A stretch of 25,207 bases of DNA, from positions 1-25,207 of IMG/VR virus record IMGVR_UViG_3300025617_001245. One strand, 5' to 3'. Each line of letters begins with the position of its first letter. Positions within the stretch are counted from its first letter, which is position 1. A model generated the notes under the pieces. That model was not told where the DNA came from. It worked only from the letters and a program-made list of their open reading frames with translations, and searched no databases. Below are positions 3,635 through 25,127 of the stretch, piece after piece. Source of the DNA: a virus. A program made the translations under genes and the position numbers.

Positions 3635-3663
3635 TTGCTACCAAAAGTATTTTGTGGTAGAAT
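3635..3663 (+). promoter_or_regulatory. katG promoter with overlapping inverted repeat
   Basis: TTGCTA (3635-3640), a 17-nt spacer and TAGAAT (3658-3663) preceded by TGG form a good sigma-70-type extended -10 promoter starting near 3670. An inverted repeat, CTACCA (3638-3643) with TGGTAG (3655-3660), spans the spacer and overlaps both boxes. A dimeric repressor could sit there; no regulator is identified. Confidence 0.6.
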
Positions 3664-3692
3664 TCATAAGTACTACAGTAAGGAGAGAGTAT

Positions 3693-6110
3693 ATGAGTGA
3701 AGAAGCAAAGTGCCCATTCCCCCACGCGGCGGCAGGGGCAGCCCCAACAGATGAGGACGTGATTAAGTCAGCGTCTGCTGCGTCTGGAACAAAGAATTTT
3801 GATTGGTTCCCAGAGGGGCTCAAGATGGATGCACTTCTTAGGCATAACCCCAAGAGTGACCCAATGAGCGACACCTTTGATTACGCTAAAGAATTTGAGT
3901 CGTTAGACCTCGAAGAGGTAAAAGTTTTTATTAAAGCAATCATGACTAGTCGTGGCGAATATTATGAAGAATCTGTTGCAGCCAGTGGCTTGCCAGGAAT
4001 GCCGTATGGACAAGAGCACTGGTGGCCAGCAGACTGGGGTCACTATGGACCCCTCTTTATTAGGCTTGCTTGGCACTCAGCTGGTACCTATCGCGTATCG
4101 GATGGCCGAGGAGGCGGTGGGGAAGGAAACATCCGTTTCTCACCACTGAACTCTTGGCCTGACAACGTAAACCTAGACAAGGCAAGACGCATCCTGTGGC
4201 CAGTTAAAGAGCGATACGGGAGGAAGCTCTCTTGGGCAGACCTCTTTATCTTGGCTGGAAACGTTGCACTCGAAGACATGGGACTAAAGATTTTTGGATT
4301 TGCTGGCGGTCGTAAAGACGTGTACGAGCCAGACAACACCTACTGGGGCCCCGAGGCAGAGTTCTTGGCTAATGCAAGGTATGACGCTAGCAGGGCATCC
4401 GACACACTTCATGATCCACTAGCAGCCGTTCAGATGGGCCTAATTTATGTTAATCCAGAAGGTCCCGACGGAAACGCCGAAGATTTTGTTGGAGCTGCAG
4501 GAGATATCCGAACCACCTTCTCTCGCATGGCTATGGATGACGAAGAGACTGTGGCCCTCATTGCTGGAGGGCACGCATTTGGAAAGTCTCACGGGGCAGG
4601 GCCAGCCGATCAGGTAGGGCCACCGCCCGAGGCGGCACCATTAGAAGAGGCCAGTCTTGGCTGGATTAATTCCCAGGGCAAGGGCCACTCAGAGGACACT
4701 ATTAGTAATGGCATTGAGGGTGCCTGGACTCCAAACCCACTGCGTTGGGACAACGATTACCTACGACTGATTTTCCAGTATGAGTGGGAGATGGTGGAAA
4801 GCCCTGCTGGTGCAAAGCAGTGGCAGCCCGTTGACTGCAAGCCAGAAGACATGGTACCTGATGCACACATCGAGGGCAAAATGAATAAGCCAATGATGAT
4901 GACCACAGACCTTGCACTCCGACTTGGAGACGACAAGTATAAAGAAATTTGTGAGAAGTTCCTAAATGATTTTGAATACTTCTCTGATGCTTTTGCCAGG
5001 GCTTGGTTTAAGCTCACCCACAGGGATATGGGCCCAGTTTCTCGTTATGTCTGGAAAGAAAACCCAGGAGAGGTTTTGCTCTGGCAGGACCCAGTAGACC
5101 CTTCACCCTATCCCGAGCTTAGCGAGGACCAGGCCGAGTTGCTTCGTTCTTCTATCATCAGCAACTTGGACGATGGAAAGTACACACTCACCTATGACAG
5201 GGGATCTGTCAAGCAGCAGAGGAAATTAGATCTAAGAGACCTAATCTTTACTGCATGGGTTTCTGCTTCTAATTATCGAAATTCAGACAAGAGGGGCGGA
5301 GCTAACGGTGCACGTATTCTCTTGGAGCCAATGAAAGCTTGGAAGTTTGTAGACTCAGAGCGGGTGGACCTGGTCGTCCAGCTATTGAATGATGCGAAGC
5401 AACAGTCTGGGGTAGGCATTACTATGGCAGACTTAATCGTGTTTGCTGGTGGAGTTGGGCTGGAGCTAGCCATCAAGAATGCTGGTCATGACAAGGCTGT
5501 GCCATTTTTTGGTGGCAGGGGAGATGCAAGACAGGATCAGGTTGACGAGTTGTCCTTTAGCTACTTGGAACCAATTCATGATGGATTTATGAACTGGGTG
5601 CACCCAGACTATAATAAAGAACATGTACTAGATAAAAATGCAGAGTTTCTTTTTGTTGAGCGTGCAGCACTTCTAGGGCTCACCCCACCAGAAATGTCAG
5701 CTTTGTTTACTGGCTTTAGGTCAATGAGTGTTCATAACCGAGGATCTGAAATCTCTTCAGTTAGCTGGAACAGAAATAGCGGGCACAAGCTTAACAGAGA
5801 CTTCCTGGAGAACGCTATTATTAAGCCATGGTACAAGTGGACAGGACACGGAGATGATCTGTGGGAGGGTGACATAGAGAATCCGTCACGGCACCCTGCA
5901 AAGGGCAAGGCCTGGTACTACTCTGGACAGCACTATGTCCATGATACCCAGGTTAAAGTGTCCAGGGCAGACATGATGTTCGCCTCTAATTCTATCCTAC
6001 GTGCCAACCTGGAGGTTTATGCAGGAATTGACGGAGATGAGATTCTCATTGATAACTTTATTAAGGCTTGGGTAAAGGTTATGAATGCAGACAGGTTCGA
6101 CATTAAATAA
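3693..6110 (+). CDS. katG: Catalase-peroxidase (bifunctional haem enzyme)
   Basis: Haem enzyme that dismutates H2O2 and oxidises organic substrates in the cytoplasm. It is full length at 805 aa with both family halves. The distal pocket has Arg124, Trp127 and His128 in RLAWHSAGTYR. Tyr252 (MGLIYVNPEG) and Met279 (SRMAMDDEET) complete the Trp-Tyr-Met crosslink needed for catalase activity. Proximal haem ligand His294 is in GGHAFGKSHGA. The degenerate C-terminal half is present to the end (SRADMMFASNSILRANLEVYA). The ATG at 3693 is chosen over the GTG at 3654 because AAGGAG lies 7 nt upstream and the alternative start overlaps the promoter. No frameshift or missing key residue is seen, so it should be active. 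It sits between tRNA-Asp and tRNA-Thr, a typical phage insertion setting, and is very unusual cargo for a phage. Confidence 0.98.
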   Translation: MSEEAKCPFPHAAAGAAPTDEDVIKSASAASGTKNFDWFPEGLKMDALLRHNPKSDPMSDTFDYAKEFESLDLEEVKVFIKAIMTSRGEYYEESVAASGLPGMPYGQEHWWPADWGHYGPLFIRLAWHSAGTYRVSDGRGGGGEGNIRFSPLNSWPDNVNLDKARRILWPVKERYGRKLSWADLFILAGNVALEDMGLKIFGFAGGRKDVYEPDNTYWGPEAEFLANARYDASRASDTLHDPLAAVQMGLIYVNPEGPDGNAEDFVGAAGDIRTTFSRMAMDDEETVALIAGGHAFGKSHGAGPADQVGPPPEAAPLEEASLGWINSQGKGHSEDTISNGIEGAWTPNPLRWDNDYLRLIFQYEWEMVESPAGAKQWQPVDCKPEDMVPDAHIEGKMNKPMMMTTDLALRLGDDKYKEICEKFLNDFEYFSDAFARAWFKLTHRDMGPVSRYVWKENPGEVLLWQDPVDPSPYPELSEDQAELLRSSIISNLDDGKYTLTYDRGSVKQQRKLDLRDLIFTAWVSASNYRNSDKRGGANGARILLEPMKAWKFVDSERVDLVVQLLNDAKQQSGVGITMADLIVFAGGVGLELAIKNAGHDKAVPFFGGRGDARQDQVDELSFSYLEPIHDGFMNWVHPDYNKEHVLDKNAEFLFVERAALLGLTPPEMSALFTGFRSMSVHNRGSEISSVSWNRNSGHKLNRDFLENAIIKPWYKWTGHGDDLWEGDIENPSRHPAKGKAWYYSGQHYVHDTQVKVSRADMMFASNSILRANLEVYAGIDGDEILIDNFIKAWVKVMNADRFDIK

Positions 6111-6121
6111 GTCGGAGTCCT

Positions 6122-6142
6122 GGGCATGACATAAAACTGCCC
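6122..6142 (+). terminator. Stem-loop after katG, possible terminator or processing hairpin
   Basis: GGGCA (6122-6126) pairs with TGCCC (6138-6142) around an 11-nt loop that begins TG and ends AAAC. The same design recurs at 14644-14668. There is no U-tract, so terminator function is only a suggestion; it ends 3 nt before tRNA-Thr. Confidence 0.4.
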
Positions 6143-6145
6143 TCC

Positions 6146-6219
6146 GCCCCCTTAGCTCAGTTGGCCAGAGCACCGCTCTTGTAAAGCGGGGGTCGTCAGT
6201 TCGAATCTGACAGGGGGCT
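6146..6219 (+). tRNA. tRNA-Thr (TGT)
   Basis: A 74-nt cloverleaf: acceptor GCCCCCT/AGGGGGC, D arm GCTC/GAGC, anticodon stem CCGCT/AGCGG with loop CTTGTAA (anticodon TGT), T arm GTCAG-TTCGAAT-CTGAC, discriminator T. CCA is not encoded. It lies between katG and thyX. Confidence 0.95.
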
Positions 6220-15949: not shown

Positions 15950-17320
15950 ATGAAGAGACAGATTGCATCAATAGCCCTTGTTCCGTTTATCCTTTCAGGA
16001 TGTGGTGTTTCGCTAGAGACAGTAAACACTTCCCAGCCAAAAGCTGAGGTGTTGCAGACTACGCAACAGCCTGTGGTTTTGTGGGATCAAACCCAATCTC
16101 CCCAGCCTGCGGAGTTTTGTAAGGTTCCAGATCAAAGACCGATAGAGTACCTAGGCCAGGCAAGGGGCCACACCATTGACGGTGTTACCTGGGGAGGACC
16201 TTCTGGATTCCCACTTGTTGAGCAAACGGTCCCCACCCAAGGAGAGCTGGATTGGCTTATCGTAATGGTTGCATTTAAAGATACTCCAAAGTATGTAGAT
16301 GAGCCATCAGAATTCTTGGACCCACAGATTGAAAAGCTAGAGGCCTGGGCCGAATTCTGGTCCCAGGGTAAGCTAAGTTTTAATGTTACTTACGTTAACT
16401 ATTGGATTGATCTACCAGTCAATGCCATTGACAGGCCTAAGAAGGATGGGGACCTCGCGAACATGATTGTCCAGGGAATGCCAGATGGAATGCACCCAGA
16501 CCACTACGATGCTACCTTTGTTCAGTGGGCAAACCTTGCTGAGGCCCCAGGTCTCGCAGAGCTGAACGGAACAAACAATATTAGATTTACTTTGCGTATG
16601 GGAAGCAATGAAAACACCTATGAGAGCCTTAATGAGGTTCCTAAGCTATTCTGGGCACCAGGATATTACCACTCAAGCGATGAGAGGCAGGCACTGACTC
16701 TGAAGAGAGAGTTTACGTACGGACATTGGCTACATGAGATTTTACATGAGATGGGGCTTAACCTGCATGCTCCTGGTAATGGCTGGGCCACTGGAGTTGG
16801 ACAGGCCTTGTACCCGAATAACCAAGGTTGGTCAGCTGCGATTAATTCATGGGAATCATTCCAGCTTGGTTGGCTAGATGACTCTCAGGTTCACTGTGTG
16901 GATAGGGAGTCTCTGGAGTCTACTAAAACTATCTTAACCCCAACAGACACTTATGGCGGAGAGAGAAAGATGATTGTAGTACCTACGAACAATGACAGCA
17001 ACGAAATCTTGGTTATTGAGGCACGACAAAAGGGTGAGTGGACAGACTGGGCAGATGTTTCAGAAGGGTTGCTTGCATATAGAGTAGACCCGACCGCCGC
17101 TCACAGGGACCATGTAGATAATGATTGTGGCAATGATCCAGCTATCAAGAAGTGGGCCTACTACATTTATCCAGACGGCACTGTAAGCCCAGAACCAAAC
17201 TGCGGGTACTTTGACCTGGCCCTGATTAGGGTGGGGGAGACCGTTACTTTTGACGGCATGACAGTCAAGCTAGACGCAACAGAAGAGGGGCTGTACTATG
17301 TTAGTATTAAAACTAATTAG
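15950..17320 (+). CDS. Secreted lipoprotein metalloprotease (M6-like, metzincin motif)
   Basis: A 456-aa predicted exported zinc protease. Residues 1-18 form a lipoprotein signal peptide (KRQ, hydrophobic core, lipobox ILSGC with Cys18). The zinc motif HEILHEMGLNLH at 262-273 fits HExxHxxGxxH, giving ligands H262, H266 and H273 and catalytic E263. Following features (WESFQLGWLDDSQV, EILVIEARQKGEW, EGLLAYRVDP) resemble M6/immune-inhibitor-A-like peptidases found in bacteria. It would sit on the outer face of the host membrane or be released. A leaderless promoter precedes it. Its stop overlaps that of the convergent oxygenase gene by 4 nt (TTAG). It is unusual for a phage; the substrate is unknown. 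Confidence 0.88.
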   Translation: MKRQIASIALVPFILSGCGVSLETVNTSQPKAEVLQTTQQPVVLWDQTQSPQPAEFCKVPDQRPIEYLGQARGHTIDGVTWGGPSGFPLVEQTVPTQGELDWLIVMVAFKDTPKYVDEPSEFLDPQIEKLEAWAEFWSQGKLSFNVTYVNYWIDLPVNAIDRPKKDGDLANMIVQGMPDGMHPDHYDATFVQWANLAEAPGLAELNGTNNIRFTLRMGSNENTYESLNEVPKLFWAPGYYHSSDERQALTLKREFTYGHWLHEILHEMGLNLHAPGNGWATGVGQALYPNNQGWSAAINSWESFQLGWLDDSQVHCVDRESLESTKTILTPTDTYGGERKMIVVPTNNDSNEILVIEARQKGEWTDWADVSEGLLAYRVDPTAAHRDHVDNDCGNDPAIKKWAYYIYPDGTVSPEPNCGYFDLALIRVGETVTFDGMTVKLDATEEGLYYVSIKTN

Positions 17321-17877
17321 TACTCGTAAGTAAACTCATCATCTGTCTGATCTTTTTGTGTAATAAAAGATCCAGCAGATATTCTGAGACCAGATTCAAT
17401 CTCTCTCACGCCGTGACTGTATTCCCTGGAGCCAGGGTGCATAATGAGGTCGCCAGCTTCTGGGACATATTCAACATCCTGGTTTGGATACCAAAGCTCC
17501 CCGCCCTCAAAGTCATCATTAATGTAATATACACAACCATACATGACTGGTGCAGAGTGGTCTCCGCCAAGGTTGTCATAGTGGGGCAGCATCCTTTGTC
17601 CAGGCTCCCAGTATACGTAGTTGTGGAGGGTGCTAAACTTGGGCTCAACTGCAAAGTCTAGAAGCTCTGTGGCTGTCTTGCGATACTTTTTATCAAGGCG
17701 GATCATTATAGAGTTAAACTCTTCTCTTAGATCGTTTCTTTTTAGGGTGTCGTCTTTTTCTTTAGCAGCATAGTACATCGAAGATAGGTAGTCGCAAACT
17801 AGCTTTGCCTCTTCTTTTGTGGAAAACTCTTTTAATAAAATAATATCTGTTCCTGGGAACGGCTCTGTAATTCTCAT
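17317..17877 (-). CDS. 2OG-Fe(II) oxygenase, prolyl-4-hydroxylase-like, ligands intact
   Basis: A 186-aa double-stranded beta-helix oxygenase that would hydroxylate a protein or other substrate using 2-oxoglutarate and O2. The iron triad is complete: H99 and D101 in MLPHYDNLGG and H155 in YSHGVREIESGLR, with R165 to bind 2-oxoglutarate; GCVYYINDDFEGGELWYP is the family core. The start at 17877 is chosen because TATAAT ends exactly 6 nt upstream; the longer frame to 17898 would run through that promoter. It is one of four related genes in the window. Confidence 0.9.
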   Translation of the reverse strand: MRITEPFPGTDIILLKEFSTKEEAKLVCDYLSSMYYAAKEKDDTLKRNDLREEFNSIMIRLDKKYRKTATELLDFAVEPKFSTLHNYVYWEPGQRMLPHYDNLGGDHSAPVMYGCVYYINDDFEGGELWYPNQDVEYVPEAGDLIMHPGSREYSHGVREIESGLRISAGSFITQKDQTDDEFTYEY

Positions 17878-17883
17878 GGTATT

Positions 17884-17889
17884 ATTATA
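17884..17889 (-). promoter_or_regulatory. Leaderless -10 promoter
   Basis: Minus-strand TATAAT followed by 6 nt (AATACC) and the ATG at 17877. It lies in the 25-nt gap after the upstream gene. Confidence 0.7.
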
Positions 17890-17902
17890 CACCATCAATC
17901 AA

Positions 17903-18265
17903 TTATGTGATGTAGAATCCGTTGCAGTTTCTTAAAAATTTTACCAAAGCTGGCATCTCAAATTGCAAGCCAGCTACAAAGGCTCTGTCTCCAACGCCAG
18001 ACTGCACAGAGACCTCCGTACCATGGCTTATTTCCGCATTAGTTGCGAATCTTTCAGTGCCCAGATTCTCTATCCTTTTGGCAATTGTCTCCGCCAGCTC
18101 CTTGCTCACCGCTTCCCCACGGTTACTAAACCAGTTTTCAACTTCTAATGCTTCAGGTATTTCTCGTTGTATCTCTCTCCAGAGTAAGTGCCAAGCCCAA
18201 ACATTAAACCGAATCCATTCTCCATCATAATTGTTTGGCTTTATGCCCTTCAGATCAAATGCCAT
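17903..18265 (-). CDS. Protein of unknown function (120 aa)
   Basis: No known family is assigned. The N-terminal half, YDGEWIRFNVWAWHLLWREI, is tryptophan-rich and recalls uncharacterised actinobacterial proteins with an F-R-N-xx-W-x-W pattern; the middle is helical (EAVSKELAETIAKRIENLGT). AAAGGA lies 7 nt before the ATG. It overlaps the end of the upstream glycosyltransferase gene by 11 bases, so the two are co-transcribed. Confidence 0.72.
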   Translation of the reverse strand: MAFDLKGIKPNNYDGEWIRFNVWAWHLLWREIQREIPEALEVENWFSNRGEAVSKELAETIAKRIENLGTERFATNAEISHGTEVSVQSGVGDRAFVAGLQFEMPALVKFLRNCNGFYIT

Positions 18266-19103
18266 TGTCTTGTCCTTTAGAAACTATTTTAATGTTACCG
18301 CTTTTTAGGGGGATATCTTTGTAAAGATCGGCCAATGCTACCAGGATGTTCTGACTGGGGGGCGTGGTATCAGGCATATCTTTTAATATGATGCTTCCGA
18401 TGTGAGTCACAAAGCTTCTTTCTTTGTTTATTTTTATTTTATTTGCATCTTGCCATATCCACTGCCAGCCCACCATTGGGTATCCAGTATTGGTTAACCA
18501 CGTCTCAAAAGTTTGACCACTCTCCTCAAAGTCTGGGAATGAAGAAACTATTTGATCTGCTAACCCTTCAACAGAAACAATGTAAGCTATCCACATACCA
18601 TCCCGCATCTCCTGGTCGTGTCTATTTAAACTAAGTAAAGTTTGTTTAGCCAAAACGAGCATGTTATCAATAATGCGTTTCAAGAATGGAGATTCTTTTT
18701 CTGAAGCTATTAGGTGGTTGTGGCATCTAAACCCCGAATGCCTTTCGTTTTTTAAATCACCATTGGTGAAGCAAAACCCCCAATGCATGTCAGGACTGCG
18801 AATTACGTAGGTGTCCAGGTCAAGGTTGGGCCTGGTATCTAAGTCAATGTACAGGCCACCTAGACGATAAAGAATAATAAGCCTGGCAAGATCTGCCCTG
18901 TAGGTCATGAGATCTATCTTAGAGTATACTTCCCAGGCATCTGAAGAGTACCCTTTTACGTGCTCCTCTACCTCAGAGTCCCGTAACAGTAGATGTTCCC
19001 AATGTGGGTATGCCTCTTGCCAGCCCCTGGCTAAGTGCTTAAAGTAGTCCAGCTCATCAGACTCGGGGCCAACATATATCTGTACAATCCGTTTAGGGAT
19101 CAA
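18255..19103 (-). CDS. GT32-type glycosyltransferase (DXD sugar-binding)
   Basis: A 282-aa transferase of the Gly_transf_sug/OCH1-like type. It opens IPKRIVQIYVG, continues with the KIDLMTYRADLARLIILYRL helix and the metal/nucleotide-sugar motif GGLYIDLDTRP (D87, D89). There is no TM anchor. It should move a sugar from a nucleotide donor to an unknown acceptor. It starts at a TTG (19103) with AAGGAG 6-7 nt upstream. It lies between two oxygenase-like genes on the same strand, with only an 18-nt gap from the upstream one. Confidence 0.88.
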   Translation of the reverse strand: MIPKRIVQIYVGPESDELDYFKHLARGWQEAYPHWEHLLLRDSEVEEHVKGYSSDAWEVYSKIDLMTYRADLARLIILYRLGGLYIDLDTRPNLDLDTYVIRSPDMHWGFCFTNGDLKNERHSGFRCHNHLIASEKESPFLKRIIDNMLVLAKQTLLSLNRHDQEMRDGMWIAYIVSVEGLADQIVSSFPDFEESGQTFETWLTNTGYPMVGWQWIWQDANKIKINKERSFVTHIGSIILKDMPDTTPPSQNILVALADLYKDIPLKSGNIKIVSKGQDNGI

Positions 19104-19121
19104 GTCTCTCTCCTTGCTGCT

Positions 19122-19625
19122 TTATTTTTCCAGAAAGCCCATCATGGTTAGAATTACCTGAGTGCCACCACTGACCTTAGAAAGACCATTGCCGAATGGC
19201 TCACCGCCTGGGTGAATAACCAAATCTCCAGCCTTGGGGCTATAGGTGTAGTCAATTTCAGGGAAGTAGTAGTTTCCTCCAGAAAAGTTATCGTTAATAA
19301 ACAACATAGTCATCGCATTGACCTGCTCATTGGTAACTGATTTCAAGACACCGTTCCACTGTACAGCCATCTCAAAGCCCTCTTCGCAAATCATAATGTC
19401 TGCTTGCTTACTCCATCGGGCGTCTCCCAGGTTGGGGTACACTTCCTTCACAACGCTTTTGATCTTGTCCTGCAGATTTTTAATAAGATCATCTGTTTTT
19501 TGTTTGTTAAAGACTGGATCTTTTAGTCCAGTAAAAATTTTGCGGAGGAAGTTCAGATCCTCATCGCTGATAATGTCTGAAACCACATATAGTGGTTGTT
19601 CTGGGTTAGGCTGTGTAATATTCAT
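19122..19625 (-). CDS. P4H-like 2OG-oxygenase fold protein lacking iron and 2OG ligands
   Basis: A 167-aa protein with the P4H-like core (MTMLFINDNFSGGNYYFPEI, SPKAGDLVIHPGG), so the fold is clear. Aligning with the intact paralogue at 17317-17877, the HxD pair becomes W90-N-G92, the distal His becomes N146 (FGNG for YSHG) and the 2OG Arg becomes Q156. All four key residues are lost, which argues against oxygenase activity. The reading frame and RBS-free leaderless promoter (TGATAGAAT, 6 nt, ATG) are intact, so it is not a decaying pseudogene. A binding or regulatory role is inferred. Confidence 0.8.
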   Translation of the reverse strand: MNITQPNPEQPLYVVSDIISDEDLNFLRKIFTGLKDPVFNKQKTDDLIKNLQDKIKSVVKEVYPNLGDARWSKQADIMICEEGFEMAVQWNGVLKSVTNEQVNAMTMLFINDNFSGGNYYFPEIDYTYSPKAGDLVIHPGGEPFGNGLSKVSGGTQVILTMMGFLEK

Positions 19626-19631
19626 ACGTAT

Positions 19632-19659
19632 ATTCTATCACTATTTTATGTGGTATAAT
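19632..19659. promoter_or_regulatory. Back-to-back divergent leaderless promoters in a 40-nt gap
   Basis: Minus strand: TGATAGAAT with its -10 at 19632-19637, 6 nt, ATG 19625. Plus strand: TGGTATAAT with its -10 at 19654-19659, 6 nt (AAGGTC), ATG 19666. Both extended -10 boxes, and nothing else, fill the whole gap. Confidence 0.75.
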
Positions 19660-19665
19660 AAGGTC

Positions 19666-20913
19666 ATGCCATATTCAGTTGGAGAAAAGGGATCTTACGG
19701 TTGCTCAGGCTACCCTGTCGTAAAGGACGGAACTAGCGAGGTAATGGGATGCCATGATACAGCAGGGGCTGCACAAAGACAGATTGCCGCTATTAATATG
19801 AGCGAAGCCGAGAAGGGTAAAAAGAAAATGACATCAGCAATGGGTCAGCCAGAGCCAGCAAGCTATGGAAAATCACACTTTAACTGGAGCACACCAGTTC
19901 GTAAACCAGAACGATCAAGTTTTAGCATCGGTAAAGCCGATGCACCAGCAGGAGCCGAGATTAAAGAGGGCGACTACGTAATGGGAGAAACCATGGAGGG
20001 CACCGTACACGGTCGTGTGGAGCACATCATGTGGGAGGGCGGAGTGCTTGGCTCGCCAGAAGGAGAGTATTCGCTTCAGTCTATGCCTCCAGAGAATCCA
20101 GCAATGTCCGTCCGTATCTTTGATGAGATTCCTGGCGGGTGGGAAGAGACAGCATACAGCATCGGAATGATGTATAAAGATGCCAAGAAAATTGATATCA
20201 GTAATCACAACATGTCTGAAGACAAGAGCTATGACGACATGTACAAGGCAGAGGGCTATGCTCCCACAAGCGGCATGAAAGCTGCTGCTCGTCGTGCCAT
20301 CAAATGGAAAGAAGATGGCAAGGCCAAGGGTGCTGGCACCGCAGTTGGCTGGGGTAGAGCAAGAGACATCGTAGCAGGTAGATCAATGTCTCTTAGTGTA
20401 GTTAAGCGTATGTACTCTTTCTTTTCTCGTCATGAGGTAGACAAGAAGGGCAAGGGCTTCTCCTCTGGTCCAGACTTTCCATCCAAGGGTCGTGTTATGT
20501 GGGACGCATGGGGCGGAGATGCAGGGTTCTCCTGGTCTCGTAAAATTGCCGAGCGCGAGAGCAAAAAGGCAGATAGTCTGTTTGACTGGGGAAATGTGAA
20601 TGATCTTAGGGCAGCCAAGCAAGCCCGTACTGATGCATGGTTTGCCATGCGTGAAGAGCAGTCAGAGATTGATTTAGTAGAAAAAGCGGATAGTGTTCGT
20701 GTGGGTCAGATGGTGTCCTGGAATTCTTCTGGGGGTACGGCAAGAGGTAAGGTTAAAAGAATTATTACTAGCGGATCATACAAGGTTCCAGACACAGATG
20801 TAACCGTAACGGGTACCAAGGAAGACCCTGCAGCAGTCATTACTTTATACAGAGACGGAGAGGCTACGGATACAGTCGTAGCTCATAAGGTTAAGACGCT
20901 AAGAGCCTCTTAG
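19666..20913 (+). CDS. Mosaic phage protein with C-terminal HVA1/TUDOR-like domain
   Basis: A 415-aa modular protein. Residues 1-45 (PYSVGEKGSYGCSGYPVVKD, MGCHDTAGAAQRQIAAI) resemble short cassettes found on phage head proteins. About 90-165 is a beta domain (IKEGDYVMGETMEGTVHGRV). About 190-310 carries the conserved phage domain with GTAVGWGRARDIVAGRSMSL and VMWDAWGGDAGFSW. The last 70 residues (VRVGQMVSWNSSGGTARGKV) resemble the HVA1/TUDOR (DUF2945) fold. The function of the middle domain is unknown to me; it may be a head- or DNA-associated protein. ATG 19666 is chosen over upstream in-frame codons because it sits 6 nt after TGGTATAAT. Confidence 0.8.
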   Translation: MPYSVGEKGSYGCSGYPVVKDGTSEVMGCHDTAGAAQRQIAAINMSEAEKGKKKMTSAMGQPEPASYGKSHFNWSTPVRKPERSSFSIGKADAPAGAEIKEGDYVMGETMEGTVHGRVEHIMWEGGVLGSPEGEYSLQSMPPENPAMSVRIFDEIPGGWEETAYSIGMMYKDAKKIDISNHNMSEDKSYDDMYKAEGYAPTSGMKAAARRAIKWKEDGKAKGAGTAVGWGRARDIVAGRSMSLSVVKRMYSFFSRHEVDKKGKGFSSGPDFPSKGRVMWDAWGGDAGFSWSRKIAERESKKADSLFDWGNVNDLRAAKQARTDAWFAMREEQSEIDLVEKADSVRVGQMVSWNSSGGTARGKVKRIITSGSYKVPDTDVTVTGTKEDPAAVITLYRDGEATDTVVAHKVKTLRAS

Positions 20914-21749
20914 GCAGTACCCTTTTTGCCAGTACCACCGTATCCACCAGACAGGAAGTGGTCTAAGGCTGGGTCTCCAGTAGACCTTTGTTGATTTCCT
21001 TTGTAATCTCCAGAGCCTAGCTCATAGCCAGACTTTTCCTGGACGTACCCCATCTCTTGTCCGTCTGTCGGGTTGAGCATGTTTGTCTTATCAAAACGAT
21101 TTTCCATGTCAGCAACATGAGAAATAAAGGATGTGAGAACATAACGCTGTCCCTCGCCAGTAACCTCAGTTACGCCGTGCAAACGACTTGCCCTAAACAG
21201 CATCATCGATCCAGCTGGGGGCTTGATCTGAGTGGTTAGGTCGTCATCCTTAAAGTAAAGATGTCCACCCTCATAGCTATCGTTAATGTAAATAACTGTA
21301 GCGAACTCTAGGCTAGGGTTGCAGTCCGTGTCTCTGTGGTCCTCAAGGCCAACTCCTTTGTAGTGACGTTGCATCACTCCATAGCGAGTAGACGGGTAGC
21401 CTGGAGGAAGAATGGCATTAACCCTATTGGTTACAGCAGTTACCTCATCGTTTAGCTGGGGCTCAGTAGAACGAACCTGGCTCATGTTCCTGGGGATAAT
21501 CATTAGCTTTCCCTCTTCAACCAGGGTAGCAATGTCTTTGCGACCATACAAGTCTTGTGCCTTTTCTTCAAGCTCTTTGAGGTAAAAGAAATACCATTGC
21601 GGCGGAAGGGTACCATTGGCAAGATCTTGGAATGCAGTAAGCTCTTCTGGTGTTAGGATGTTGTGCACCAAAAATGCATCATCAGCCAGCTGCTCATATG
21701 TGTAGCCCTGCTCGTCAAGATTTGCTTTAATTTTTTCTTTGAGTTCCAT
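20910..21749 (-). CDS. 2OG-Fe(II) oxygenase, prolyl-4-hydroxylase-like, ligands intact
   Basis: The largest of the four oxygenase-like proteins (279 aa). Ligands are complete: H138 and D140 in LEDHRDTDCN, H191 in RLHGVTEV and R202 in GQRYVLTSFI, within the core VIYINDSYEGGHLYF. An N-terminal helical extension of about 100 residues and a glycine-rich C-terminal tail (YELGSGDYKGNQQ, LSGGYGGTGKKG) are extra to the basic fold. ATG 21749 is preferred; a TTG at 21770 would be nearly at the transcription start. Its stop overlaps the convergent gene's stop by 4 nt. Confidence 0.88.
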   Translation of the reverse strand: MELKEKIKANLDEQGYTYEQLADDAFLVHNILTPEELTAFQDLANGTLPPQWYFFYLKELEEKAQDLYGRKDIATLVEEGKLMIIPRNMSQVRSTEPQLNDEVTAVTNRVNAILPPGYPSTRYGVMQRHYKGVGLEDHRDTDCNPSLEFATVIYINDSYEGGHLYFKDDDLTTQIKPPAGSMMLFRASRLHGVTEVTGEGQRYVLTSFISHVADMENRFDKTNMLNPTDGQEMGYVQEKSGYELGSGDYKGNQQRSTGDPALDHFLSGGYGGTGKKGTA

Positions 21750-21781
21750 GTGTGTCGGAGTCCCTTTCAAATAGTAATACC

Positions 21782-21787
21782 ATTATA
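21782..21787 (-). promoter_or_regulatory. -10 element overlapping an upstream stop codon
   Basis: Minus-strand TATAAT at 21787-21782 contains the TAA stop of the 54-aa gene upstream. Start is predicted near 21775, leaving a 26-nt leader with GAAAGGGA before the ATG at 21749. Confidence 0.5.
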
Positions 21788-21947
21788 CATCATTTTTCTT
21801 TTCACAATGCTCTATATATAGTGCCTTAAGTTGATCAGCGTACTTCTCATAATCTATTTCAATAATCATATCTTTGCCGATGGTGTGTATTTTAATCTCT
21901 TTTCCAATGTTAAAGAGTATTTCTTTTATTTCTTTGTCTAGGTCCAT
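21783..21947 (-). CDS. Small protein of unknown function (54 aa)
   Basis: A 54-aa, lysine-rich, mostly helical ORF (DLDKEIKEILFNIGKEIKIH, IIEIDYEKYADQLKALYIEH). It starts exactly 6 nt after TATAAT, the same leaderless design as its neighbours, and fills the gap between the oxygenase and the tandem glycosyltransferase. No family is recognised. Confidence 0.62.
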   Translation of the reverse strand: MDLDKEIKEILFNIGKEIKIHTIGKDMIIEIDYEKYADQLKALYIEHCEKKNDV

Positions 21948-21953
21948 ACCTAC

Positions 21954-21978
21954 ATTATACCTTAATGAATGCTATAAT
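21954..21978. promoter_or_regulatory. Divergent leaderless promoters in a 39-nt gap
   Basis: Minus strand: TATAAT at 21959-21954, 6 nt (GTAGGT), ATG 21947. Plus strand: TATAAT at 21973-21978, or an overlapping TAATAT exactly 6 nt from the ATG at 21987. It is a second case of two start sites packed into about 40 nt. Confidence 0.65.
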
Positions 21979-21986
21979 ATATACAA

Positions 21987-23534
21987 ATGGACGCAAATAC
22001 AATTCTTACTGTTATGCCCATCTACAATGCTGAGAAAACCCTAAAGGCAGCGGTAGATAGCATTCTTGCACAAACTTATACTAACATACATTTAGTGTTA
22101 GTGGATGACTTCTCTACAGACAGATCTCTTGAGATTGCATTGTCTTATCAACAAGACAAAAGGGTAACAATTATTCGTAACAAGGAAAATCTTGGTGCCT
22201 ACTACTGTCGCAACATAGGCCTATACAAGTTTCGTAATCAGCCATGGGGATTTTTTACTACCCATGACGCAGATGACGTGTCCAGGCTTGATCGATTCGT
22301 CCTGATGCACAAGCACTTTAGAAATACTAGAACGGTTGCCGTGCAAGATACTTGGGAGAGACGGAGGCTTAGCACGAAAGAAAGTATCTCGGTTAGCCTT
22401 ACGTGTGCCCATGCCATGTTTAAAAGAAAAGTCTTTGAGGATCTGGGCTACTTCGAAATGATGAGATTCGGTGCCGACTGGGAGCATTGGGCCAGGGTAA
22501 ATCAGTACAATGACATGAATAAAACTACTTCTAGAAGCTTAAAGGAAGTCACTGGCAACTCTTATGTTGCCAAGACCAATCTGACAGAGCAGATACCTGC
22601 AGGCTCTGGCCCAAGAGAAGTTTACATAGCTAAAAAGCAGGCCGAGCACGCTAAAGCAAAGCTAAATAATAAAACCATTTATCGTAACTTCAGCCCAAAG
22701 TCAAGGGCCCAGGACGTTGAGGGTTACAAGTTGCCATCGAAACCAATAAAGGGTGCAGAACTTGGCAACTCGGATGCAGCACCTAAATATAACAATGTTC
22801 GAATTACCGTAGTGCTTCTGACCTGGCAACGGCTAGGGCTACTTGCAAAGACGTTGGAGTCTTTATCTAAACAAACCTTTCAAAATTTTGAGGTATACGT
22901 TAGCAATGCCAACACCTCACATGAGGACGTAGTCGAAAAGACTACAAAAAAATACTCCGACAGGCTAAAGATAAGGGTTGGGCACGATGGCAATGAACTG
23001 TTCGCCTTTAGAAGAATGACAGTGGGCAAGAGGCTAGCCGAAGAGGGCACAGATATAATACTATTTATAGATGATGATATTACTTTTGATGAAAAGTACG
23101 TAGAAATCATGTTGCGGCACTACGAGCCTAAAGCTTATAAGTCAGGATTTGCCTGGAGTTTTCAGAACAATGGCTCCGACTATTACGGCAAAAGAACCAG
23201 GGTATTTGACCAGTCGTCTGTAATTCATTATTGTGGCACAGGTATTAGTATCATAGATGCCAGCATATTTTTAGATAAAAAGCTTATCAGCCTCGCACCA
23301 CCAAGTGCAATCAAGATAGAAGATCTCTGGCTTTCGTATTATGCCCAGCACGTTAAGCGGTGGAAGCTGGGGTATGTTCCCGTAGAAAACGTGGTTATCG
23401 GTGGCTCAGACTCCGTTGCCCTTTACAAGAGCATTCTAAATGACAAGAAAAAAGCTGGCAGTAATGTTGTGGATAAGGCAGACTTCTTGAGGCAGTTGAC
23501 TAAAGAGTATGGATGGAAGTTACCAACTAAATAA
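21987..23534 (+). CDS. Tandem GT2-family glycosyltransferase (two catalytic domains)
   Basis: A 515-aa protein with two GT-A domains. Domain 1 (about 5-215) has VMPIYNAEKTLKAAVDSILA, VDDFSTD (D40-D41) and the DXD-type HDADD (D94-D97). A linker of about 55 residues follows. Domain 2 (about 271-515) has VVLLTWQRLGLLAKTLESLS and FIDDD (D362-D364), with IKIEDLW as a possible catalytic acid region. The acceptor is unknown; two domains suggest addition of two sugars or chain extension. It has a near-leaderless promoter. Its 3' end overlaps the convergent HNH gene by 8 nt. Confidence 0.9.
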   Translation: MDANTILTVMPIYNAEKTLKAAVDSILAQTYTNIHLVLVDDFSTDRSLEIALSYQQDKRVTIIRNKENLGAYYCRNIGLYKFRNQPWGFFTTHDADDVSRLDRFVLMHKHFRNTRTVAVQDTWERRRLSTKESISVSLTCAHAMFKRKVFEDLGYFEMMRFGADWEHWARVNQYNDMNKTTSRSLKEVTGNSYVAKTNLTEQIPAGSGPREVYIAKKQAEHAKAKLNNKTIYRNFSPKSRAQDVEGYKLPSKPIKGAELGNSDAAPKYNNVRITVVLLTWQRLGLLAKTLESLSKQTFQNFEVYVSNANTSHEDVVEKTTKKYSDRLKIRVGHDGNELFAFRRMTVGKRLAEEGTDIILFIDDDITFDEKYVEIMLRHYEPKAYKSGFAWSFQNNGSDYYGKRTRVFDQSSVIHYCGTGISIIDASIFLDKKLISLAPPSAIKIEDLWLSYYAQHVKRWKLGYVPVENVVIGGSDSVALYKSILNDKKKAGSNVVDKADFLRQLTKEYGWKLPTK

Positions 23535-23820
23535 AGGCCTTGTTCTGGCGTTCCCAGGTACGATATCTGTGACAGTTGGCACAAACAACCTCACACTTGG
23601 AAATCTCTTGTTTAATAGTTTTAATACTTACAGCAGAGTTCGCGTACCTGGCTAGATTGTGTTTCTTTTTGCCATCAACATGGTCAAAGTCCATTTGGCT
23701 ATAGTGATAGGATTGCTTACAATCGGCACACACAGACTTCTCTTTGACGGATCGTATATAATCTTTGTTTCGATCTCTGGCCTCCCTTTTGCGGGCAGCT
23801 TCGGTAGAAGTCTTGGACAA
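23527..23820 (-). CDS. HNH endonuclease
   Basis: A 97-aa nuclease with a basic N-terminus, zinc pairs C31xxC34 and C80xxC83, and the HNH core DFDHVDGKKKHN (H47) then VVCANCHRYRTWE (H84). A size near 100 aa and its solitary position fit a free-standing phage HNH enzyme, possibly homing. TTG at 23820 with AGGAG about 9 nt upstream is the start. It follows a small zinc-ribbon gene on the same strand. Confidence 0.87.
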   Translation of the reverse strand: MSKTSTEAARKREARDRNKDYIRSVKEKSVCADCKQSYHYSQMDFDHVDGKKKHNLARYANSAVSIKTIKQEISKCEVVCANCHRYRTWERQNKAFI

Positions 23821-23845
23821 TATTCAGCTCTCCTTATGTCTAGTG

Positions 23846-23986
23846 CTACTCGTCTTCATAATCTACAAATGATTTACTAAATCCACAGTGAGCACACATT
23901 TCATATATGTGTGTGTAAATAGGGTCCTCTTTGTCATCTATTACCATGAACTCTAAGTCAGAGCCACAGTCTGGGCAGCGGATCAA
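23846..23986 (-). CDS. Small zinc-ribbon protein (46 aa)
   Basis: A short ORF reading MIRCPDCGSDLEFMVIDDKE then YEMCAHCGFSKSFVDYEDE: two CxxC knuckles (CPDC, CAHC) about 30 residues apart, a classic zinc ribbon. The likely start is TTG 23986, with AGGA 8 nt upstream inside the end of the PTS IIB-like gene. It is co-transcribed with that gene and the HNH gene. Its partner is unknown; it could bind nucleic acid. Confidence 0.7.
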   Translation of the reverse strand: MIRCPDCGSDLEFMVIDDKEDPIYTHIYEMCAHCGFSKSFVDYEDE

Positions 23987-23991
23987 CGGGT

Positions 23992-24264
23992 TTATCCTAC
24001 TAGGAAATCTTTAAACAACTCTTTTGCAAAAGAGTTAAAGTCCTCGATTGTTTTGACAGGCTTCTTGTGTTCCCCTAGAGCCTTGACGACAAATGGCTTA
24101 AGCTCATCAAACGTTAGCACTACATCATGGTCTGCAAAGTGTTGGGGCGAATCCGCAAGTGAGCATGCCATGTATTGGTTGTCTGGAATCATCTTTTCAA
24201 GCCTAGTCTTGAGCATGGCAGAAGATCCAACACCACTGTTACAAATAATTAAAACTTTTAACAT
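23992..24264 (-). CDS. PTS IIB-like (mannitol-type) phosphotransfer domain protein
   Basis: A 90-aa stand-alone protein resembling the IIB domain of mannitol-class sugar phosphotransferase systems. It reads KVLIICNSGVGSSAMLKTRL, with Cys8 in the phosphate loop CNSGVGSSAM, then DVVLTFDELKPFVVKAL and a C-terminal helix. In hosts IIB receives phosphate from IIA and gives it to sugar at IIC; neither is present here. Two ATGs occur (24267, 24264); AAGGAG is better spaced from 24264. An extended -10, TGCTATAAT, lies upstream. It could intercept host phosphotransfer. Lone domains of this type are rare in phages to my knowledge. Confidence 0.75.
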   Translation of the reverse strand: MLKVLIICNSGVGSSAMLKTRLEKMIPDNQYMACSLADSPQHFADHDVVLTFDELKPFVVKALGEHKKPVKTIEDFNSFAKELFKDFLVG

Positions 24265-24289
24265 CATTCTCCTTGTGTGTTATGGAACT

Positions 24290-24345
24290 ATTATAGCACC
24301 TTATGTCATGAACATGTTGACAGTATCGCCAACTTAGTATATAAT
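24290..24345. promoter_or_regulatory. Divergent promoters between the PTS IIB-like and helical-protein genes
   Basis: Minus strand: TGCTATAAT with -10 at 24295-24290 and a leader carrying AAGGAG. Plus strand: perfect TTGACA (24317-24322), 17 nt, TATAAT (24340-24345), 6 nt, ATG 24352, giving a leaderless transcript. The palindrome AACATGTT (24311-24318) lies between and touches the -35. Confidence 0.75.
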
Positions 24346-24351
24346 TGTAAC

Positions 24352-24579
24352 ATGAGTGAAGACAACGATCCAAACCCATATGGGTTTTTAAAAAGCTTGC
24401 CCGAGGGCTTAGGCTGGATTAGTAGGCTGGAGAATGAGCTAATACAGCTACTTGATGATGTCATTAAACACAAGGATGTGTTGTCGGAGATAAGTCTCAA
24501 TGCTCTGTATTACACTATAGCAAAGACAGAAGAGGCAATACAGCGTCTAGAAATAGAAATAAAGATGTTTGAGGAGTAA
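24352..24579 (+). CDS. Small helical protein of unknown function (75 aa)
   Basis: A 75-aa acidic protein, mostly one long predicted helix (ISRLENELIQLLDDVIKHKD, YTIAKTEEAIQRLEIEIKMF), likely a short coiled coil. ATG 24352 is chosen because TATAAT ends 6 nt before it; the earlier in-frame ATG at 24277 would read through the promoter. It runs into the next gene, whose TTG start lies 2 nt after the stop, so the two form an operon under the strongest consensus promoter in the window. Confidence 0.75.
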   Translation: MSEDNDPNPYGFLKSLPEGLGWISRLENELIQLLDDVIKHKDVLSEISLNALYYTIAKTEEAIQRLEIEIKMFEE

Positions 24580-24581
24580 GG

Positions 24582-25127
24582 TTGAATAAGAATATTACAA
24601 TACTGCCTAACTACATCTCAAGGGGTGAAGCCACCAGCCTGATCGAGCTTCTTAATGAGCATGATCAAGATGACCAGAACTGGGGGTCTCCCTGCTTCCC
24701 TGATCGCTGGGCAAAGATGGGCGGCAACCCCAAGCTGCAGCCAAGCAACAACCCAATCCCTGACTTAATTAGCCAGGTAACGAAAACTGTTGCTCAAAAA
24801 TTTTTAGACAATGGGATGCGGCCTTATGTAATTAAGGGCCATTGTCATCCAGCAGGTGCTCAGACGGTCCCTAATGGATATAAAGACTACGCCGCTATCT
24901 TGTATCTTAATGACGACTATTCTGGGGGCCATTTTATTATGCCAGAAGAAGACATTTCGTTAAAGCTAGATGCGGGGACTTTGATAGTTTTTAGAGATGC
25001 GGGCAACCATTCTCTTAATAGAGATAATAAAAGATTTTACGGAGTTTCCAAAGTAACAGAGGGAGTTAGATATTCTATTACGTTTACATTTTATGCAGAA
25101 GGGATGACTGATATAATTTATGATTAA
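24582..25127 (+). CDS. P4H-like 2OG-oxygenase fold protein with altered iron site
   Basis: A 181-aa protein with the P4H-like core (AAILYLNDDYSGGHFIMPEE, KLDAGTLIVFRDAGNHSLNR, VTEGVRYSITF). Aligned on YLNDDYSGG with the intact paralogues, the HxD position falls on G92-A-Q94 and the distal His on Y153; the 2OG Arg163 is kept. His87 and His89 are nearby and might serve instead if the loop is shifted, so loss of activity is probable but not certain. The start is TTG 24582, with AAGG just before it and the previous stop 2 nt away. Confidence 0.8.
   Translation: MNKNITILPNYISRGEATSLIELLNEHDQDDQNWGSPCFPDRWAKMGGNPKLQPSNNPIPDLISQVTKTVAQKFLDNGMRPYVIKGHCHPAGAQTVPNGYKDYAAILYLNDDYSGGHFIMPEEDISLKLDAGTLIVFRDAGNHSLNRDNKRFYGVSKVTEGVRYSITFTFYAEGMTDIIYD

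Follow-up and report, generated by a model that had tools for sequence, protein, structure and literature searches.

The 25,207-base window analysed here (IMG/VR virus record IMGVR_UViG_3300025617_001245, positions 1 to 25,207) is a phage fragment encoding four proteins of the prolyl 4-hydroxylase (P4H) type, P1 to P4 (Table 1). P1 and P3 carry the complete site of a 2-oxoglutarate (2OG)/Fe(II) oxygenase; P2 and P4 have the P4H fold and intact frames, and the Fe(II) ligands are missing from P2 and probably also from P4. An original prediction made from the letters alone had claimed four P4H-like proteins, two with altered iron sites, and this was confirmed by Pfam for P1 and P3 and, for P2 and P4, by a profile that recognises both at 99%. 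We propose, with an even balance of belief and doubt, that P2 and P4 are maintained pseudo-oxygenases, which would persist as binding subunits after the loss of their Fe(II) ligands. Since similar iron-less copies are kept under selection in related phages, the altered genes are probably not decayed but encode functional proteins without enzyme activity.

P1 and P3 matched PF13640 (2OG-FeII_Oxy_3) above the Pfam curated score of 27 (P1, 5.7e-9 and 37.3 bits; P3, 3.4e-13 and 50.8 bits), and P1 also matched phrog_61 (5.6e-17). Both have the HxD...H triad and the distal Arg/Lys by which P4H-type Fe(II)/2OG oxygenases are recognised, as had been predicted. The P1 ortholog in a related contig, L241 (positions 5639-6199), is 80% identical, and P3 orthologs in related contigs are 83% and 69% identical, with the site residues invariant in every case. 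P1 and P3 look like working P4H-type 2OG/Fe(II) oxygenases and are predicted to be active.

P2 and P4 had no Pfam match, and their PHROG matches to phrog_61 were weak (6e-5 and 3e-6, respectively). E-values from the family hidden Markov model took in altered members; the independent test was a profile of intact relatives built without P2, P4, the altered families A and B described below, and the proteins of the P2 slot, with one altered sequence, L206, staying in. This profile recognised P2 at 99.2% (E 1e-19) and P4 at 99.3% (E 7e-21), and since it excludes both proteins, their kinship to P4Hs is not a matter of chance. The AlphaFold model of P2 (predicted local distance difference test, pLDDT, 89; predicted template modelling score, pTM, 0.86) is predicted to adopt the double-stranded beta-helix P4H fold, with Z-scores against the PDB of 17.3 for P3H1, 17.2 for PBCV-1 vCPH, and 17.0 for the B. 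anthracis P4H over 154-165 residues.

To place the iron site of P2, we used the spacing rules of the family: among 135 intact relatives, a Gly lies six residues upstream of the first His in 109, the modal spacing from this His to Y(LND) is 16 residues, and the distal His and the Arg are 10 residues apart in 101. By these rules G83+6 falls on Q89, and the HxD position of P2 reads Q89-W-N91, followed by N146 at the distal His and Q156 at the 2OG-binding Arg/Lys; the prediction had N and Q right, but its W-N-G was one residue off. The lone His of the whole protein is H138, with a counterpart, H147, in intact P1; because P2 has this single His, a two-His iron site is impossible. A Fe(II)/2OG halogenase (HxG/A, both His kept) was considered and rejected, both ligand-position His being gone. 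The frame of 167 codons is intact, and its in-frame codon signal (0.31) is as strong as in the well-known genes of the window (0.10-0.38). Its residues make it almost certain that P2 does not work as an Fe(II)/2OG enzyme, and we consider it very likely that the protein is non-catalytic and maintained.

The P4 model was weaker (pLDDT 74, below 50 at residues 84-89 and 91-94), with a Z-score of 12.6 to P3H1 and of 11-13 over its P4H matches; together with the profile result, it places P4 in the same fold. L-INS-i, the Gly rule (G86+6 = G92), and the modal 16-residue spacing agree on G92-A-Q94, Y153, and R163, which is what had been predicted, whereas a faster alignment puts H87-C-H89 at HxD and implies a spacing of 21 that occurs in 0/135 intact relatives. 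The triad position accordingly reads G-A-Q plus Y or H-C-H plus Y, neither of them canonical, and because of the alternative alignment and the poorly modelled strand II the first register is favoured with less certainty. R163, at the 2OG-binding position, lies 10 residues past Y153, the usual family distance. The frame of 181 codons is intact, its codon signal (0.17) falls inside the range of known window genes, and a GAGGAG ribosome site precedes its TTG start; all four P4H-type frames are open with plausible starts, as predicted. P4 too probably lacks an iron site, less certainly than P2, and we lean modestly towards its being non-catalytic and maintained. The earlier suggestion that the altered copies bind 2OG is unlikely for P2, with Gln at the Arg position, and possible for P4, which keeps the Arg.

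The fold is common to P2 (Z 17), P4 (Z 11-13), and the bacterial and viral P4Hs (B. anthracis 3itq/5hv4 and PBCV-1 vCPH 5c5t; PF13640), as are the core YxND...GG and the C-terminal barrel. The full site of those enzymes is kept in P1 and P3; P2 differs from them in having none of the three iron ligands and no 2OG Arg, and P4, in the favoured register, in lacking the ligands while keeping the Arg.

We examined whether such losses recur in a sample of 50 contigs related by NrdB. P4H-like genes are present in 31 of the 50, up to 13 per contig and often in tandem arrays; arrays of diverged genes were seen in G034, G041, G045, G004, G030, and G047. The iron site is intact in 135 of 150 aligned homologues, and the altered copies are spread over several lineages. 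Two kinds of row were left out of the degenerate count: the "HDRD" sequences, apparently a different family with an intact site whose distal His is misaligned, and a single row cut off by a contig end. Parsimony requires about six state changes for iron-site loss on a quick tree with many weak branches, and a single clade or origin of all altered copies was rejected (approximately unbiased test, p-AU 9.4e-5).

Two altered families stand out in these relatives. Group A comprises members from 8 contigs that are 62-100% identical; the site reads S-x-N or is otherwise changed, followed by Y and K, and in most contigs the P4H-like domain follows an N6/N4 DNA methylase in the same frame. In L324 (4290-5603), L320, L321, L323, and L325 the iron-less domain shares one frame with a preceding methylase that has LPPY at its DPPY-type motif; L326 encodes the P4H-like domain on its own. 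Group B, found in 41 contigs, is marked by an invariant motif at the N-terminus, KFNTKEDHxPLHDxLF; almost all its members have a changed iron site, and its genes sit among phage structural and class II ribonucleotide reductase (RNR) genes; the L341 member had no match in Pfam, PHROG, or INPHARED. The ratio of nonsynonymous to synonymous substitution rates (dN/dS) is 0.15-0.42 in group A and 0.05-0.24 in group B, indicating purifying selection on both, and they are therefore selected proteins: the catalytic residues are gone and the coding constraint is kept, as in a pseudoenzyme under selection. At five distinct loci (L330, L331, L333, L336, and L337) a group B gene and an intact P4H gene overlap, with between a few and about 50 nucleotides (nt) in common; in L219 a group B gene, whose product keeps the triad without the Arg, abuts an intact one. 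L324 also encodes, on the minus strand (733-1452), a collagen-like tail-fibre protein (PF01391, 9.4e-9) within about 5 kb of P4H genes, which is a candidate for the kind of substrate involved; no collagen-like tail-fibre gene was seen in the 25.2-kb window.

P2 heads a run of four genes, P2-GT32-ORF-P1, in which a GT32-type glycosyltransferase and a small open reading frame (ORF) separate the altered protein from the intact oxygenase. The P2 stop lies 18 nt from the GT32 start, GT32 and the ORF overlap by 11 nt, and 25 nt separate the ORF from P1. L241 has the same order: an M6-like protein, P1, the ORF, GT32, a slot corresponding to P2, the phrog_2859 protein, P3, and a GT2 glycosyltransferase. 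Identity between the two contigs is about 80% for P1, P3, and their neighbours and 43-48% for GT32 and the small ORF, and the phrog_2859 protein is the best-conserved anchor of the locus. The slot in L241 is filled by a protein of 167 aa, like P2, that reads E-R-N at HxD, its distal His being ambiguous in the alignment; it was recognised as P4H-like at 90% (E 1.4e-6), and at 73% with a degenerate-free profile. P2 and this protein are only 15% identical and BLAST finds no similarity between them, so that we rejected them as clear orthologs, and it is only the slot for an altered copy that is conserved. A P1-based scan for further relatives returned solely the source contig of L241, and a GT32-based scan found nothing.

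Across the related contigs, 9 of the 18 GT2 genes have a P4H gene at a distance of 1.5 kb or less, compared with 3.1 expected (p 0.0008, an optimistic value since the contigs are related). The gene run, the overlaps of altered with intact genes, and this closeness of GT2 to P4H genes suggest a route of hydroxylation followed by glycosylation. We infer that P1 would hydroxylate a peptide side chain of the substrate, GT32 would then glycosylate that hydroxyl, and P2, as a peptide-binding partner of the two enzymes, would bind or choose that peptide, or serve as a scaffold for P1 and GT32, without catalysis of its own. The partnership with active copies put forward in the original prediction is plausible at the run with P1, the five overlaps, and the abutting pair, but other altered copies stand alone; a partner role for the iron-less copies is tentative.

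The nearest parallels are partial. P3H1 is the top structural match by Z-score of both the P2 and P4 models. To our knowledge CRTAP, its partner, is no P4H-fold pseudo-oxygenase, and the likeness is limited to the logic of an inactive partner. P3H1, the collagen prolyl 3-hydroxylase, is described as acting in complex with CRTAP (PMC3900401). The Skp1 pathway of Dictyostelium and Toxoplasma joins prolyl hydroxylation and subsequent glycosylation on one protein (PMC3515798, PMC11570480); it is eukaryotic and cytosolic, without a known pseudo-hydroxylase, and is only an analogy to P2-GT32-ORF-P1. Cyanophages, like the present phage, carry many diverged copies of one superfamily per genome: their 2OG-Fe(II) oxygenases number 1-5 per genome and 24 in S-SCSM1, their function being unknown according to the accounts consulted (PMC9602691, PMC3037559). 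They are a different phage group from the WhiB-encoding, actinobacterial type found here, and those accounts, in their passages on these genes, count copies and do not address iron-site loss. With S-SCSM1 as an isolate control, the site columns could not be read in most of the 25 proteins tested, which are too distant from the P4H profile, and this control speaks neither for nor against generality. Multi-copy phage 2OG oxygenases are thus already known; in the open-licence literature we came across no account of phage proteins of the P4H type that lack the iron site, and such copies are apparently unreported there.

Several results weigh against maintained binding subunits in partnership with active enzymes. 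The tree branches leading to P2 and P4 are long (1.6-2.1, compared with a median near 0.4), and no close relatives of their exact sequences were found in the collections searched, a P4 ortholog being found nowhere: scanning IMG/VR for peptide patterns of P2 and P4 alone yielded no match, and tblastn against 50,697 phage records gave marginal matches only. Iron-site loss does recur in relatives, but these two sequences may be unique to this genome, or may have closer orthologs in metagenome contigs outside those collections. An identity of 15% to the L241 slot protein is too low to establish orthology of, or constraint on, P2. GT32 shows no enrichment around the P4H genes of related contigs (1/4), most group B genes are solitary, without a P4H neighbour, and the group A gene lies on the other strand from its intact neighbour.

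The main rival is that the altered copies are stand-alone binding proteins, the fold having been reused without an oxygenase partner, for example as a tail or virion component or as an adaptor of another enzyme. Consistent with it are the group B genes that stand alone near structural and class II RNR genes and encode the invariant motif, and the group A domains behind a methylase; P2, however, lies in one run with an intact P4H and a glycosyltransferase, and altered genes overlap or abut intact ones at the six group B loci, and we consider this rival rather unlikely. Decaying relics of duplicated oxygenases would explain the long branches and the lack of close relatives, but both frames are intact with codon signals inside the known-gene range, P4 has a promoter as well as a ribosome site, an altered protein of equal length fills the L241 slot, and the other altered families are under purifying selection; we hold decay to be improbable, and the predicted maintenance of the altered copies as pseudo-enzymes gains support from the same frames, codon signals, slot, and selection. 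The same low standing goes to the idea of atypical metalloenzymes that stay active by means of different ligands. It suits P4 best, where H87, H89, and H143 are possibly near the site, the Arg is kept, and the register of strand II is in doubt. AspH works with no more than two His ligands, and its single-His variants stay active (PMC10947486), which shows that losing some ligands need not end activity, but AspH keeps two His and P2 has none at the ligand positions, its one His having a counterpart in intact P1, and the spacing rules place G and Q at the ligand sites of P4.

The window also encodes NrdA, NrdB, ThyX, a WhiB-like protein, and an Hsp20-like protein (named from their sequences) and three tRNAs. 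TATAAT followed after 4-9 bases by ATG occurs 8 times in the window, compared with 1.8 expected, and 0/100 shuffles reach that number; this leaderless-type placement is found at five gene starts (8035, 17877, 19666, 21987, and 24352). From this combination of genes and TATAAT-ATG placements, the window is probably a fragment of a phage with an Actinobacteria host and leaderless mRNAs. Translation of the ORF upstream of P4 probably starts at the very 5' end of its mRNA. A genome scan for the phage host gave one weak match only, and the host was not found. A full-length KatG catalase-peroxidase (3654-6110, plus strand; 818 aa; PF00141, 5e-48) lies between tRNA-Asp and tRNA-Thr; its homologs in related phage contigs (79% in L008/L009 and 60% in L004/L006) indicate that KatG recurs in this phage group. 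Its matches in the phage collection are only about 43% identical, and several of them are in records that carry bacterial names. Neither the 456-aa protein at 15950-17320 nor the small ORF between P1 and GT32 had a match in Pfam or PHROG searches.

Table 1. Features of the P4H-type locus in the window, and group B in related contigs
Feature	Coordinates	Strand	Details
456-aa protein	15950-17320	+	Lipobox-like signal LSGC and metalloprotease-like motif HEILHEMG; 77% conserved in L241
P1, intact P4H-type 2OG-Fe(II) oxygenase	17317-17877	-	H99-Y-D101, H155, R165
TATAAT, leaderless-type promoter of P1	17884-17889	-	6 nt upstream of P1 ATG
Small ORF between P1 and GT32	17903-18265	-	48% to L241 counterpart
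GT32-type (DXD, Gly_transf_sug) glycosyltransferase	18255-19103	-	PF04488, 6.5e-11; ortholog in L241, 40-43%
P2, P4H-fold protein lacking the iron and 2OG residues	19122-19625	-	Q89-W-N91, N146, Q156; heads P2-GT32-ORF-P1
TAGAAT, weak leaderless-type -10 of P2	19632-19637	-	6 nt upstream of P2 ATG
phrog_2859 protein, TUDOR-like C-terminus	19666-20913	+	Divergent neighbour of P2; outside the P4H set
P3, intact P4H-type oxygenase	20910-21749	-	H138-R-D140, H191, R202
Two-domain GT2 glycosyltransferase	21987-23534	+	PF00535, 2.2e-35; adjoins P3; TATAAT upstream of ATG
Consensus promoter TTGACA-17-TATAAT	24317-24345	+	12/12 match; heads ORF 24352-24579 and P4
Small ORF	24352-24579	+	Stop 2 nt upstream of P4
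P4, P4H-fold protein, altered iron site	24582-25127	+	G92-A-Q94, Y153 (favoured register); Arg163 kept; TTG start after GAGGAG
Group B, proteins of about 200 aa, degraded P4H iron site	L327-L367, e.g. L341:5001-5600		

Aquatic viromes are rich in phage 2OG-Fe(II) oxygenases, and the usual interpretation is that these enzymes alter the 2-oxoglutarate, nitrogen, or DNA repair chemistry of the host. If conserved copies are indeed unable to bind iron, the enzyme reading would be wrong for them, and counts of "oxygenase" genes would overstate enzymatic capacity. We are equally inclined to accept and to doubt that in large aquatic phages P4H-type oxygenases have repeatedly become binding modules without iron, which selection maintains, and we hold in the same balance the roles that these modules may then have, as tail-region proteins, as methylase-fused domains, and as partners of active hydroxylases and glycosyltransferases. 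Iron-less copies, above all those with an active copy and glycosyltransferases as neighbours, give a starting point for finding the substrate of the family, and if the proposal is true, the iron-less binding modules of large aquatic phages would form an unrecognised class of viral pseudo-oxygenases.

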